Part shown: piece by piece, positions 41,336 to 45,922 of the stretch
Layout: each line of letters opens with the position of its first letter
How positions within the stretch are numbered: position 1 is the stretch's first letter
DNA from: an uncultured Clostridia bacterium
GTDB lineage: Bacteria; Bacillota; Clostridia; Christensenellales; UBA1242
Length of the DNA stretch: 63,741 nt
NCBI GenBank assembly: GCA_947366895.1
Contig: CANBBP010000006.1
Span: forward strand, 1 to 63,741
Direction of reading: 5' to 3'
Program-made: the position numbers and the translations under genes
The notes under the pieces: model-generated
Told to the model about the DNA's origin: nothing
The model's database searches: none
What the model saw: the letters and a program-made list of their open reading frames with translations, nothing else

Positions 41336-41638
41336 TTAAATAGAACCAATGAAATCAATTATATTTTTCTTTTTATCCTCTGATAAAGAATTTAATAAAT
41401 GTTCAAGTTCTTTATTTACTTCATATTCAAAAATATTATGATTGAAAAATCTTTCAATAGGAAAGTTGCAAATTTCTAAAATTTGTAATAATATTTCTAC
41501 TGTTAAAACAATTCTACCTCTTTCAATTTGAGCCATATATTGTGGACTCATACCCATTCTTAAACTTAATTCTCTTGCTGATAAATTAATATTACTTCTT
41601 ACATAGCCTATTCTTTCTAAGACTTCTTTGATACCCAT
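41336..41638 (-). CDS. XRE-family transcriptional regulator
   Basis: A 100-residue protein; residues 5-62 are a helix-turn-helix with NLSARELSLRMGMSPQYMAQIERG, typical of XRE proteins. The C-terminal 30 residues (ELEHLLNSLSEDKKKNIIDFI) form a dimerisation-type helix common in Clostridia. GGGAG lies upstream of the ATG. It sits 260 bp outside the left end of the tRNA-Arg island and beside a frameshifted gene; regulated targets are unknown. Confidence 0.85.
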   Translation of the reverse strand: MGIKEVLERIGYVRSNINLSARELSLRMGMSPQYMAQIERGRIVLTVEILLQILEICNFPIERFFNHNIFEYEVNKELEHLLNSLSEDKKKNIIDFIGSI

Positions 41639-41902: not shown

Positions 41903-41942
41903 AAAAAAACTATACATACTTTAAGTATATATAGTTTTTTTT
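41903..41942 (-). terminator. ancestral terminator of the split tRNA-Arg
   Basis: AACTATA-C-ATACTT/AAGTAT-A-TATAGTT stem with T-runs on both sides. On the minus strand it directly follows the displaced 3' half of tRNA-Arg, where a tRNA terminator is expected. Confidence 0.65.
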
Positions 41943-41991
41943 CTTTGGTGCACCCTAAGGAGTTCGAATCCCTAACCTTTGGTTCCGTAGA
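41938..41991 (-). repeat. displaced 3' half of tRNA-Arg (att-like repeat, left end)
   Basis: 54 bp identical to 45633-45686, covering the tRNA-Arg 3' half from the anticodon loop through CCA plus 8 bp of downstream DNA. It ends abruptly after the core GGTTCCGTAGA. It is not a complete tRNA. This is the left boundary of the inserted segment. Confidence 0.85.
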
Positions 41992-42487
41992 TAAATAGTA
42001 GTTTGAAATATGCTTTGTAGTAAGTGTAAATTTTATGTTTTTGTAAGTATTAAGTTAGATTTTGTAAATTATATAGATTATGTTTGTTTTGTTATTTATA
42101 TAAAATTAATAAATTTTAATAGATATTTTTATAATTTCTTTTATAATAAATTTTTATTTTCTTAAAATATTGAAATTTTATTCATACTAAATTTAATATA
42201 CAATGACTAACTATCTTAATAATGAAAAAACAAATTTGTTTGATACTAAACTAAAAATATTTATTTGTGAAACAAAAGAACTATACTTGAAAACGATACC
42301 GTTGAAATTATGAAAATAATTTAGCTTGAAATTAATTAAAAGGGGATACAAGGATGTTATTATTGGATTGGTTAAAGATAGCGATGTAGATTTAATAGTG
42401 TTTGAAGAGTTCCATTAAGTAAAAGTAAAATTACAATTATTATTTATTTTGCTTATATCTAGCAATAACTTTTATAAATAAATTATC
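41992..42487. other. island left arm: AT-rich DNA with gene debris
   Basis: No full gene. Short repeats of TTTTGTAA occur at 42005-42070 and could be recombinase arm sites. A 36-codon frame starts at 42201. A short frame ending at 42418 (KDVIIGLVKDSDVDLIVF) looks like the tail of a lost protein. Nothing here is intact. Confidence 0.4.
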
Positions 42488-43339
42488 TTAGTAGACAATA
42501 TTTAGTTTATATTTATCTTGGTACTCTCTTATTTTTTGATAAAGAATAGTATTCGTGAAGTGTTCCTTTTGATATCCAGTTCTTAAATAATCTTCTAGTT
42601 CATCAGAACTAATAGAAGTAATTTTTTTTGATTTCGGAAACTTAAATTTAAGTTCTCTAATAAGTGCTTTGCAAAAATCATGTCCATTAGTTAATTCTAA
42701 CAAGTCATTTTCTGATAGACTCATAATTTGAGTTTTAATTTCTTTATTGCGTTTTTCATCTATAGGATTAGATTTATTTTTGTTATTTATAACATGAATA
42801 GTTTGCGTTAATTGATGATATTCTGTTTTTTGTAAAATTCCATTTATAGATATATTTTGAAAAGTCAGTCCCCAATCATTTTTGTCATTAAGTTTTCGTA
42901 TAACTGAAATAAAGATAAGTTTTTTTAGAACAATATTTCTCAAGACTTCACTATCAAGAAACTGATTTGTAATAATAAATAAAGTATACTCAAAAAAATC
43001 TTTGTTACCAATTATCATCATCTCTGCATTGCAGTGGTCGCAAAAAAATAGGCGATCAATTTCCTGGGTTTCATAATCTCTATCTGCAATACCAATAACT
43101 CTATTTTCATTTAAAAACCTATTTGTTATAATATCTTTTATTGATTGTTTTCCTCCATAAGATTCAAATAAATAGGTGTTATTTAAGTTTATAAGTTTCA
43201 TAAATAGTTTAATATCATCTTGACCTTCAAAAATAATAATGGCTTTAGTTTGATTTTGTGGGACACTCAGTAATAGCCTTATTTCATTTTCCATAGAAAA
43301 CTTTGATAAATTCATTCTAATTGAGTTATTGTTTGGCAT
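42488..43339 (-). CDS. TOPRIM/DUF4435 nuclease-like protein, PARIS AriB-like
   Basis: A 283-residue protein with the TOPRIM outline of DUF4435: IIIFEGQDDIKLFMKLI (Glu and the acidic pair) near 35-50, SYGGKQSIKDII near 62, and VIGIADRDYE (DxD) near 85, followed by FFCDHCNAEMMII. These acidic residues would bind metal for RNA/DNA cleavage. It overlaps the end of the upstream ATPase gene by 14 nt; GGGAG precedes the chosen ATG at 43339. ATPase plus DUF4435 in this order is the arrangement of the PARIS system, where AriB is released as a tRNA-cutting toxin when phage anti-restriction proteins appear. OLD-type two-gene systems are an alternative. Confidence 0.7.
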   Translation of the reverse strand: MPNNNSIRMNLSKFSMENEIRLLLSVPQNQTKAIIIFEGQDDIKLFMKLINLNNTYLFESYGGKQSIKDIITNRFLNENRVIGIADRDYETQEIDRLFFCDHCNAEMMIIGNKDFFEYTLFIITNQFLDSEVLRNIVLKKLIFISVIRKLNDKNDWGLTFQNISINGILQKTEYHQLTQTIHVINNKNKSNPIDEKRNKEIKTQIMSLSENDLLELTNGHDFCKALIRELKFKFPKSKKITSISSDELEDYLRTGYQKEHFTNTILYQKIREYQDKYKLNIVY

Positions 43340-44654
43340 ATTCTTCTCCCAAATCAATAACTAAATTCCAATTGTTGTCAATTACTTGTGGAGCATGAGT
43401 AGAGATTAGTAAATTAAGATTCCCATTTTTTAAATTGATGATTTTATGAAGATCTTGCATTAATTCTCTTTGCCAAGCTACATGCAATGAAATTTCGGGT
43501 TCATCTATAAGTAGCATAAGTTTGTCTTTTACACCAAAAATTAATTCATAATATAGAACTATTATTTGTTGTTCTCCAGAGGAAAGTTTACTAGTTTCTA
43601 ATTCTGAGTTGTCTTCTTTTAGAACTATAAGTCCGTGTTCGTTAGAAATAACTACTTTTTTATAGTTTAACTTTTTATTTACAATTTCAGTAAATAAATC
43701 TAATCTTGCGACAATATCATCAAAAACTTCTAATTTTTGTTTTGTATCTTTTAAATAAACATATAAAGCTTGTGAATATGATTCAGTATATTCTGTTGAA
43801 CTATATTTTAAATCATTAAGAAGTTTATAAGATTGTATTTTTTCTTGTTTGTTTATAACATCTCCCAAAGATTCTAAATAATCTCGCTGTGAGATGCCTT
43901 CTTTTGTATTAAATAGTCTTTTAGGAAATGTACTATCCAATTGAGAAGATACTTCAGAGTATTTTAATACTACATTTTGTATTTCATCTTTGATTTTTTT
44001 TGGAATTTCATTTATTACTTCTATAGCAATTTCTCGTTTATGTGGATAATAGTTAAATTCATCTTCATCTATTTCTTTTCTTAATAATCGTTGTTCTTTT
44101 ATAAATTTTATAGTTCCGATTTCTTTTTTAAATTTGATTAAAAAGTTGTTGAGATCTTTGTACATTGCTTGCGATTCTTTATTCCGTTTTGCTGTATCTA
44201 AGGATAAGTAAATTAACCTATCTGTTATTTCTCTTTCACGTTCATATCTTACTCGTATATCGCGTACTTCTTCATATGAAATGATTTTATTGTTACGTAA
44301 ATCAATATAGTCTTTTGGACTTATTCTTTCAATAAATGGAAGATCCTTTCTTTTTTCAAGATTTTCTAAAACTCTTTTATTAGGTATTTTAAAAGAAACA
44401 TTATTTACAAAAATCTGATCCTTGTTTTTTTCAATTTTTAGGGTTAATTTATTAGTTAATTTTGCTTCTAATGATATAAAAGGGAATTGACTAATTTCAT
44501 ATAGATCTTTTTCAACAATAGCTTCAACTATTTTTAATATAGTACTCTTACCAAAGCCATTTGGACCTGTTATGATTGTTATTCCAGTTTCATTTAATTT
44601 TATATTATAATTAAATTGTCCAAAAAGTTTATTGATGCGTAGTTCTTTTAACAT
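43326..44654 (-). CDS. AAA/ABC-type ATPase, PARIS AriA-like
   Basis: A 442-residue SMC/OLD-like ATPase. Walker A is ITGPNGFGKSTI near 26-37, a coiled, charged middle region follows (about 100-340), then the signature KLSSGEQQIIVLYYELIF near 352, Walker B LLIDEPEISLHV near 380 and LISTHAPQVI near 418. The absence of a membrane domain excludes a transporter. GAGGTG precedes ATG 44654. The DUF4435 gene overlaps its end, so both are made together. In PARIS the ATPase forms the sensor scaffold that holds the TOPRIM effector; the similarity here is by domain pair, size and order, not by a database match. Confidence 0.72.
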   Translation of the reverse strand: MLKELRINKLFGQFNYNIKLNETGITIITGPNGFGKSTILKIVEAIVEKDLYEISQFPFISLEAKLTNKLTLKIEKNKDQIFVNNVSFKIPNKRVLENLEKRKDLPFIERISPKDYIDLRNNKIISYEEVRDIRVRYEREREITDRLIYLSLDTAKRNKESQAMYKDLNNFLIKFKKEIGTIKFIKEQRLLRKEIDEDEFNYYPHKREIAIEVINEIPKKIKDEIQNVVLKYSEVSSQLDSTFPKRLFNTKEGISQRDYLESLGDVINKQEKIQSYKLLNDLKYSSTEYTESYSQALYVYLKDTKQKLEVFDDIVARLDLFTEIVNKKLNYKKVVISNEHGLIVLKEDNSELETSKLSSGEQQIIVLYYELIFGVKDKLMLLIDEPEISLHVAWQRELMQDLHKIINLKNGNLNLLISTHAPQVIDNNWNLVIDLGEEYAKQ

Positions 44655-44691
44655 AAAATACACCTCATAAATATTAAATCGTATTTAAGGC

Positions 44692-44720
44692 ATTTTATCA
44701 TAAAATTCGTTATTAAACAA
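44692..44720 (-). promoter_or_regulatory. promoter of the ATPase/TOPRIM operon
   Basis: On the minus strand TTGTTT (44720-44715), a 17-bp spacer and TAAAAT (44697-44692), ending 37 bp before the ATPase ATG. Confidence 0.5.
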
Positions 44721-45001
44721 TATTTTCTTACAAAAAAACAATTTTAATTATTATTTTTTTATAGTATTTCAAATGAATTAGTTTTAGTATAGAATTGGAT
44801 GTTGATATAAAAATGATGTTTAAAGGAATTAAAAAGACAATGTTGTAAGATAAATATTTTTATAAAAACTAAAAGCAGTAATGCCTGGTTCAGGAAAGAT
44901 GTATTTTTTAGAATAATTAAAAACAGTGACATTAGTTATCCCTGTTTTTTATATTATAAAACAATTAGTTAGTCTGGTGGTTCATTTTAGGTTTACCTAT
45001 G

Positions 45002-45077
45002 AACAAGATTTACTCCTTTGTGTTAAAATTGAATGTAGTCTACACAAAACAATAAACACAAAGAAGTAAATCTTGTT
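45002..45077. repeat. 23-bp inverted repeat at the IS200 left side
   Basis: Arms 45002-45024 and 45055-45077 pair at 22 of 23 positions around a 30-base loop. In IS200 such a structure blocks outside transcription and hides the tnpA start. Confidence 0.85.
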
Positions 45078-45095
45078 AAAGATAAACAATAATAG

Positions 45096-45528
45096 TTTAG
45101 CAACACTACTTGGAATTGCAAATATCATATAGTTTTTACTCTTAAGTATAGGAGAAAGGTTTTTTACAATCAAAAGAGATTAGAAATAGGAGCAATTCTA
45201 AGAAGTTTGTGTGATTGGAAAGAAGTTGAGATAATAGGGGCAGAAGTTTGTCCAGACCATATACTTATGCTAGTATCAATACAACCAAAATTAAGTGTAT
45301 CAGGATCTATGGGATATTTCAAAGGCAAAAGTAGTATACTAATATATCAAAAGTATGTATATGAAATTTAATTATAGGAATAGAGAATTTTGGTGTCGTG
45401 GGTATTATGTAGACACTGTTGGGAAAAACAAAAAGCAAATACAAGAATATATTGCAAATCAGTTGAAAGAAGATAAAGAAATGGAACAAATGACAATATA
45501 TGAAATAGTAGACCCATTTAAGAAATAA
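45096..45528 (+). pseudogene. tnpA: IS200 transposase TnpA, inactivated
   Basis: Translation is clearly IS200 Y1 transposase: TTWNCKYHIVFTLKYRRKVFY, then GAEVCPDHILML, VSGSMGYFKGKSS, and after a frameshift near 45360 NYRNREFWCRGYYVDTVGKN to a TAA at 45526-45528. Damage: two in-frame stops just before 45096, a frameshift at about 45355-45365, and loss of the second His of the HUH motif (DHIL instead of DHIH). The catalytic Tyr region (YYVDTVG) remains. It cannot be active as is. Confidence 0.88.
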
Positions 45529-45632
45529 CGAAAAGATTTGCAATAAGGCAAGGTAGGTTACGCACGATTTCGTGCAGCCTTTAAAGAAAGGTTTTATCTG
45601 TTAAATGAAAAACCACCAGGTTCACTGGTGGC

Positions 45633-45686
45633 TTTTTCTTTGGTGCACCCTAAGGAGTTCGAATCCCTAACCTTTGGTTCCGTAGA
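45633..45686 (-). repeat. second copy of the 54-bp tRNA-Arg 3' repeat
   Basis: Identical to 41938-41991; here it is part of the intact tRNA-Arg gene. Confidence 0.85.
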
Positions 45687-45717
45687 CCAACGCTCTATCC
45701 AGTTGAGCTAAGGGTGC
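45641..45717 (-). tRNA. tRNA-Arg(ACG), complete
   Basis: Minus-strand cloverleaf: acceptor GCACCCT/AGGGTGC, D arm GCTC...GAGC, anticodon stem TTGGT/ACCAA with loop CTACGGA (anticodon ACG), T arm AGGGATTCGAACTCCT and encoded CCA at 45641-45643. Its upstream (right) side has no convincing TTGACA-type -35, unlike the other tRNA genes here; the likely original promoter now lies beyond 45922. Confidence 0.95.
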
Positions 45718-45721
45718 ATAG
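45676..45721 (-). repeat. 46-bp tRNA-Arg 5' half, copy in the intact gene
   Basis: Identical to 45877-45922; runs from the 11-bp core to 4 bp past the tRNA 5' end. Confidence 0.85.
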
Positions 45722-45876
45722 TTAAAAAAAGATATTAAGTTGTTAATTTTTAAAGGAACCAAAGGTTCAGGGCCCCAAAAAATGTTTAAAAGATTTTTTG
45801 GGTAAAGCGAGTAGCAAGTGGTTATTAAAGTCACGAAAGAATAGAGTGACAAATAACAAAACTTGCGAGCGAGCAA
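45722..45876. other. 155-bp hairpin cluster between tRNA-Arg copies
   Basis: Three structures in a row: an inverted 13-bp copy of the tRNA core region (GGAACCAAAGGTT, 45755-45767), a perfect 10-bp stem CCCAAAAAAT/ATTTTTTGGG (45774-45802), and a long imperfect stem with arms 45814-45834 and 45846-45866 (GCAAGT/ACTTGC outside, GTCAC/GTGAC inside). GC content is higher than the surroundings. It has no open frame. It may be a recombination-site arm region, a small RNA or the remains of a second insertion. Confidence 0.55.
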
Positions 45877-45922
45877 GGTTCCGTAGACCAACGCTCTATC
45901 CAGTTGAGCTAAGGGTGCATAG
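45877..45922 (-). repeat. displaced 5' half of tRNA-Arg (right end of island)
   Basis: 46 bp identical to 45676-45721, from the 11-bp core to just beyond the tRNA 5' end. Upstream a weak promoter (TTGTAT, 17 bp, TCAAAT on the minus strand, about 45970-45940) fits the original tRNA promoter. Confidence 0.8.

Follow-up and report, generated by a model that had tools for sequence, protein, structure and literature searches.

A split tRNA-Arg(ACG) gene in an uncultured Clostridia bacterium, probably shaped by the insertion of a structured repeat unit and of an island

How can a tRNA gene be split in two and yet be present whole between its own halves? The question is raised by a stretch of 63,741 nucleotides from an uncultured Clostridia bacterium (assembly GCA_947366895.1, contig CANBBP010000006.1), referred to here as the window, in which a tRNA-Arg(ACG) gene is interrupted in its anticodon loop. 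The window genome is designated G000 and the contig C6; G and L numbers are our labels for genomes of the same bacterial family and for loci. We consider it probable that this layout arose from two insertions which took place separately at one and the same anticodon-loop core. By the one, at 45718-45922, a structured repeat unit would have entered the core, displacing the old 5' half and supplying a new 5' half together with an upstream region, so that the gene stayed whole. By the other, an island of about 3.7 kb would have been recombined in, core to core, by a tyrosine integrase that was lost or acted from elsewhere; it would have supplied a new 3' half, leaving its predecessor displaced at 41938-41991, and its cargo would have included a predicted PARIS-like defense pair. 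The order of the two events and the enzyme are what we infer from the arrangement.

The split gene in the window and in sister genomes

Repeat searches and inspection of the sequence bore out the arrangement given in a preliminary description: displaced halves lie on both sides of a complete tRNA, and they are linked to it by exact repeats of 54 nt (41938-41991 and 45633-45686) and 46 nt (45676-45721 and 45877-45922), lengths far beyond chance expectation. The 11-bp core GGTTCCGTAGA, which covers parts of the anticodon loop and stem, occurs three times (41981-41991, 45676-45686, and 45877-45887). The terminator placed at the left in that description corresponds to a hairpin adjoining the outer 3' half, probably the native one. 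The features of the locus are collected in Table 1. At gathering score, Rfam matched tRNAs alone in the window, and a promoter consensus scan listed no hit on the minus strand of the spacer.

Table 1. Features of the split tRNA-Arg(ACG) locus, in window coordinates
Feature	Position	Strand	Evidence
Hairpin adjoining the outer 3' half, likely native terminator	41903-41941	not assigned	inverted repeat I5
Displaced 3' half of tRNA-Arg(ACG), core at 41981-41991	41938-41991	minus	54-nt exact repeat
DUF4435-like protein, predicted AriB-like partner	42488-43357	minus	weak profile matches of its database entry and of relatives
AriA-like ATPase (AAA_15)	43326-44663	minus	PADLOC and PDB matches
Decayed IS200-like (Y1) transposase gene with hairpin	44990-45530	plus	six-frame reading by eye; inverted repeat I1
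Hairpin 3' of the whole tRNA, likely its terminator	45613-45631	called on plus	minus-strand T run seen by eye
Whole tRNA-Arg(ACG)	45641-45717	minus	ARAGORN and Rfam; sole whole copy found in the genome
Repeat-unit spacer	45718-45876	minus	covariance model R1 (covers 45755-45886); folding z
Unit tail, 13 nt complementary to sequence downstream in the tRNA	45755-45767	minus	by eye
Terminator-like hairpin immediately 3' of the displaced 5' half	45862-45877	minus	hairpin scan
Displaced 5' half of tRNA-Arg(ACG), core at its end	45877-45922	minus	46-nt exact repeat

A genome-wide pattern search allowing up to three mismatches returned the inner whole gene and its 5' half as the only Arg-ACG sequences, besides one further match with a different anticodon. 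As this search of a genome that is 97% complete gave no other Arg-ACG gene, the inner copy appears, on sequence grounds, to be the only working one. The island contains no integrase, as the preliminary description had stated; the five Phage_integrase matches of G000 lie on contigs C19, C7, C3, C1, and C3, and none is on C6.

The insertion at the anticodon-loop core that this description proposed, and the single uninterrupted tRNA-Arg that it expected in relatives free of the island, are both supported by two sister genomes. G003 and G002 possess one uninterrupted tRNA-Arg(ACG) gene beside the same phosphoesterase, PHP, and NTP-transferase genes, and no copies of tRNA halves were found in the 12 and 16 kb examined at these sites. 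In G009 and G005 the phosphoesterase gene again adjoins the site, but the tRNA gene is split. At the spot of the window island, G009, which shares its genus code with G000, carries an integrase island with a whole foreign tRNA: the outer 5' half pairs with a 3' half at a distance of 13 kb, the acceptor stem of the whole tRNA inside is a different one, and tail to tail with this tRNA lies the gene for a 476-residue tyrosine integrase with a Cro/C1-type helix-turn-helix match in the middle of the protein. The G005 sequence is broken across contigs, so far as it goes showing both halves (with stems pairing in 12 of 12 positions) and G009-like ends; the inner tRNA and the integrase were not seen in it. 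Since the right junction of the window island, TTATCTACGGAACC, resembles those of G009 and G005, a similar, now absent enzyme is likely for the window island as well. A helix-turn-helix regulator is encoded just beyond the outer 3' half of the window (41336-41638), and similar regulators lie both within and just outside the G009 island.

The structured repeat unit

The right-hand 0.2 kb of the locus, comprising the displaced 5' half and the spacer, is one copy of a repeat unit. Its spacer is unlike those of the integrase islands and resembles sequences in G008 and further genomes. A strict unit pattern matched 17 of 309 family genomes, distributed over 9 of 42 genera, with no match to the reversed control; an order-wide sample gave four matching genomes out of 396, all four in the unit's own family. 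In order, the unit consists of a 5' half ending in GGAACC, a long helix that has a hairpin at its apex, and a second helix of the form CCC(C)...GGG(G); then come the tail, which is complementary to the tRNA, an upstream region, and finally the tRNA in full. A whole tRNA or a further core follows after 54 to 78 nt in 18 of 20 units; the other two (L229 and L234) have no intact core next. Tandem units are present in G008, G239, G252, G230, and G290.

Two properties set the unit apart from the integrase islands. No 3' half was found downstream of it in 12 other genomes searched, seven of which had more than 10 kb of readable sequence, and no integrase of the island family was found in the unit loci scanned. 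By script, the 5' half agreed with the acceptor region of the resident tRNA in 13 of 15 units, versus 2 of 16 integrase elements (L063 and L072; Fisher P = 5e-5); G230, scored as different, proved by eye to be a register slip (GCGTCCA in both), which makes 14 of 15 by eye. In four units the 5' halves keep the anticodon stem-loop and have altered D arms, as judged by eye: L250 (G230), L229 (G252), L234 (G343), and L235 (G290). An intron in the anticodon loop, which was also considered, was rejected, because with such D arms splicing of the outer half would yield no tRNA and because the inner gene is already whole.

Several measures indicate that the spacer is structured. The window spacer scored 90.9 bits against covariance model R1, of whose 17 training sequences it is one, and its folding z values were -3.9 and -4.36. 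In the alignment of the 17 units, 80.9% of the cells were paired (70.1% in shuffles), 17 pairs had changed on both sides (10.6 in shuffles), and the covariation score was 0.305 (0.143 in shuffles). None of 500 shuffles was as high on any of these three measures and one of 500 on pair types, and slid versions scored at most 0.138. The long helix reached -15.2 kcal/mol with both strands from the same unit versus -9.1 with strands from different units, a value as low being obtained in 0 of 20,000 permutations, and in 16 of 16 cases the pairing of its strands within the unit surpassed the row median. For the unit as present in L211, L212, L039, and L221, Rfam offered no credible match even with E values allowed up to 1. 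No clean pair of loci differing by the unit alone was found among 18 listed unoccupied loci, as the flanks differ; two of these do not count, L187 being G239's own occupied site and L258 not being orientable.

The unit belongs to a wider set of repeats. A covariance model of the unit matched at least 171 of 306 family genomes at an E value of 0.001 or better (E values being rough), and the matches listed are often several per genome and often lack tRNA-derived ends. Two sets of loci, 13 and 20 with one copy in common, were chosen from the listed matches and inspected. They include copies at tRNA-Arg(TCG) genes and copies that split tRNA-Leu(AAG) and tRNA-Leu(TAG) genes on the opposite strand, and other copies with no tRNA found nearby. 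Two structured-repeat copies stand in a row in L304, L307, and L318; no tRNA was detected in the L307 and L318 stretches.

At tRNA genes, the tail 3' of the second helix follows the target of its own copy. Of 29 loci given to the tail test, 26 were scored, while the window, L245, and L293 failed the script patterns. In 25 of the 26 scored copies the tail is complementary to its own target over 9 to 14 nt, the exception being L315 with only 5 nt; the mean match is 12.3 nt, versus 7.7 nt for tails taken from copies with a different target and 4.35 nt (maximum 9) for shuffled tails. The window tail, read by eye, is complementary over 13 nt. Five scored copies (L246, L247, L249, L275, and L250) came from a search whose pattern requires part of the tail and so do not count as independent; among the remaining 21, a match of 9 to 14 nt is present in 20. 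The covariance model through which the TCG, Leu, and some ACG copies were found includes a tail of the ACG kind, and two loci in the test, L301 and L311, hardly differ from each other. In copies away from tRNA genes, which lay outside the scoring, no such tail was seen by eye. We tentatively propose that the right-hand unit may be a copy of a hitherto undescribed mobile element spread through the family. Such an element would be a folded repeat, about 130 bp long, with a tail serving as guide through 9 to 14 nt of complementarity to the gene entered; it would rebuild each tRNA that it splits (Arg-ACG, Arg-TCG, or Leu) by duplicating the displaced part, and islands would afterwards reuse its cores.

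Units and island-like sequence do meet in G305 (contig C19) and G384, where cargo-like genes lie upstream of a unit and abut its core; they include a reverse transcriptase gene and phage-like genes, as named by eye. It looks as if islands had used the unit core as a landing site there. The reverse transcriptase encoded upstream of the unit in G305 (L243, 1228-2247) has a YIDD motif and, by eye, is like those of diversity-generating retroelements.

Integrase islands, cargo, and competing explanations

A displaced half together with a whole tRNA was found by script in 14 of 110 integrase loci, two of which (L063 and L138) are one contig. In a tree of 102 integrases, calculated by a quick method and with long-branch warnings that concern L144, L146, and L152 among others, 18 rows bear the label of this layout, which was given by eye and not by the strict test for L066, L072, L082, L106, and L146; 17 of the 18 fall into one clade of 27 rows (SH-aLRT 100), and for the remaining 10 rows of the clade, L062 included, no tRNA is within reach. 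In L164 the layout is found outside this clade. The targets are tRNA-Arg(ACG), tRNA-Arg(CCT), tRNA-Thr(CGT), and tRNA-Thr(GGT). G000 itself possesses such an element at tRNA-Arg(CCT) on contig C7 (L052, 9669-16676), with the native halves outside and a whole foreign tRNA inside; this element and the G009 island each have an integrase of their own, unlike the window island. Near-identical elements lie behind differing native 5' halves in L058, L059, and L060.

Stem pairing shows which halves belong together. In seven integrase elements the outer halves paired with each other in 83 of 84 positions and the inner ones in 84 of 84, whereas mixed halves paired in 63 and 67 of 84. 3' halves had been sought in 14 loci, with candidates in eight and none in L043, L170, L172, L173, and L177; L042 has no whole tRNA to search with, and its 3' half was located separately. 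The window was left out of this comparison, all its halves being identical, and so was L175, whose candidate 3' half pairs with the outermost 5' half in 6 of 7 and 3 of 5 positions, the two other 5' halves in sum pairing no better. Beside the integrases of L068 and L069, 5' halves are stacked, which suggests repeated insertion. The 5' halves that stand stacked before a single whole tRNA in L068, L069, and L039 can be read as an insertion record. Short-leader variants (68 to 94 bp) occur in L144, L164, L219, and L220, and in L219 and L220 the crossover seems, by eye, to lie in the T loop rather than the anticodon loop. A classical layout is present on contig C3 of G000, where a whole tRNA-Gly(CCC) (L055, 14029-14102) is accompanied by a 3' copy alone, 7.6 kb away, and has an integrase gene adjoining.

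As to cargo, a PHROGs search with ten island proteins, a part of the total (eight from G009 and two from the C7 element of G000), left seven unmatched and assigned three as a regulator, an HNH protein, and a nuclease, the HNH protein also matching a terminase small subunit weakly; no phage capsid or tail family was found among the ten. The island of the window encodes an ATPase for which AriA was the best of 70 PADLOC families (E = 2.3e-27), the AriA part of PARIS thus being present, and which also matched AriA in the PDB (E = 5.6e-15). The adjacent protein of 289 residues had no Pfam or PADLOC match of its own and no match in a PDB search. Its database entry, P0001, reached 1.2e-5 and 25.7 bits against DUF4435, below the cut-off of 27, and DUF4435 matched 3 of 21 proteins, namely P0001 and two of its 20 relatives. 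On the PARIS defense system see PMC9122126 and PMC12409363; it consists of the ATPase AriA and of AriB (DUF4435/Toprim), which cleaves tRNA. The window resembles PARIS in having an AriA-like ATPase adjoining a DUF4435-like protein and differs in that the partner is placed by weak profile matches only; we predict a PARIS-like defense pair, its function being deduced from sequence similarity. The IS200-like gene nearby has broken frames, and its family was recognized by eye.

How, then, did the window locus arise? One island carrying a whole replacement tRNA, inserted once and later deprived of its integrase, perhaps at the decayed IS200-like gene, would account for the parts of the locus by a single event, and islands of this type exist, at the same spot in G009 and at tRNA-Arg(CCT) in G000, with outer and inner halves that pair as described. 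We nevertheless regard this course as unlikely, though worth serious attention, for the window spacer is not that of an integrase island but that of the unit seen elsewhere without a 3' half, and the window halves are identical, as is the case for the acceptor stem in only 2 of 16 integrase elements. The preliminary description, which read the locus as one tRNA-carrying island of 3.9 kb, is upheld insofar as such an island occurs in G009 at this position, but the right-hand 0.2 kb matches a separate unit, for which no 3' half was found in the 12 other genomes searched; the remnant of two insertions that the description mentioned as an alternative fits best. The unit might instead be what remains of former islands with a tRNA, if their inner and outer 3' halves recombined, so that the cargo was lost and a 5' half with its spacer stayed behind. 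One to three units in a row before a whole tRNA, and the 5' halves stacked beside integrases in L068 and L069, would suit this origin, which we hold to be quite improbable: no integrase element with such a spacer was found in the loci scanned, the spacer has covarying helices, and related copies sit away from tRNA genes. That homologous recombination duplicated the region locally, or that the assembly is wrong, as the preliminary description had warned, is very improbable. An assembler could go astray at exact repeats of such length (46 and 54 bp); however, related split layouts with different sequences occur in independent assemblies, and the outer halves of seven elements pair with each other.

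Against two insertions, our preferred reading, a number of observations have to be set. The enzyme for neither step is present, and as the window halves are all identical, their stem pairing cannot tell which half came with which insertion. The fold on which covariation was scored had been predicted from the same alignment of 17 units, which favors it, and when nine units had been aligned earlier, the covariation term came out at 0. Taken singly, 4 of 20 units fold weakly (z = -0.52, -0.69, -1.03, and -1.67), and the unit's own strand was the best partner for the long helix in only 6 of 16 cases. About 1 kb or less can be read after the tRNA in G008 and G332, and contig ends are nearby in G230 and G343; with so little sequence after the tRNA, an island may be hidden in these four genomes. 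In G290 the unit precedes a tRNA that differs from the displaced half, and in G305 (C19) and G384 units and islands do meet.

Relation to known systems

An island that contains a whole essential tRNA would make its host dependent on it, and from the stacked remains in one group of Clostridia the cost and the history of such insertions can be read. More unusual than the islands is the repeat unit, with its covarying helices, its many copies, and a tail that follows its own target; tRNA genes of three kinds stay unbroken when it enters them. Should the tail guide insertion, the unit would represent a small DNA element of natural origin directed by a guide; should the unit act as RNA, it could be classed as a new tRNA-linked RNA. 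Searches within the open library of PubMed Central turned up no description of the repeat unit and none of islands with a tRNA in this bacterial family. The text consulted on tycheposons gave no information about whole replacement tRNAs. IS200/IS605-derived palindromic repeats are small, multicopy sequences with hairpins near both ends, and the unit resembles them in these respects; to our knowledge, neither a target-complementary tail of 9 to 14 nt nor a duplicated 5' half belongs to the features of that group. The only Y1-like gene near the window unit is the decayed one, recognized by eye.

The rebuilt tRNA of pTN3-like archaeal integrases is driven by the integrase promoter (PMC8371274), whereas the unit here comes without an integrase. 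The Islander collection (PMC4383910) comprises 3760 islands with a 3' fragment and 159 with a 5' fragment, the crossover being in the anticodon loop in 2083. The window is similar in that a whole tRNA at one end and a displaced 3' fragment at the other bound an island (41938-45717); the Islander algorithm requires an integrase and one fragment per island, whereas the window has fragments on both sides and no integrase. In the tRNA-dependent lysogeny of phages of Actinobacteria (PMC10865867), which have an integrase, a core of about 10 bp lies in the tRNA gene, the tRNA is rebuilt at neither junction, and the element brings along a complete tRNA of that type, into which, it was speculated, tandem insertion might occur. 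The window shares with it the short core inside a tRNA gene (11 bp), the lack of a rebuilt tRNA at the junctions, and a target tRNA otherwise absent from the cell (at the genome completeness given above). The whole tRNA between the cores of the window is identical in sequence to both displaced halves. The window differs in lacking the integrase and in possibly representing two events; the islands described here, moreover, are found in Clostridia, and some have stacked 5' halves. Whole replacement tRNAs have likewise been described for the Rhizobium phage vTRX32-1 and its kin, with a 12-bp core in tRNA-Leu and the tRNA in the prophage (PMC8631192), and mentioned for S. meliloti (PMC11476347), so that the class of tRNA-carrying islands is already known in kind. 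The replacement tRNA of vTRX32-1 is said to lack the core, which blocks further integration (PMC8631192), whereas the whole tRNAs of the elements described here keep it.

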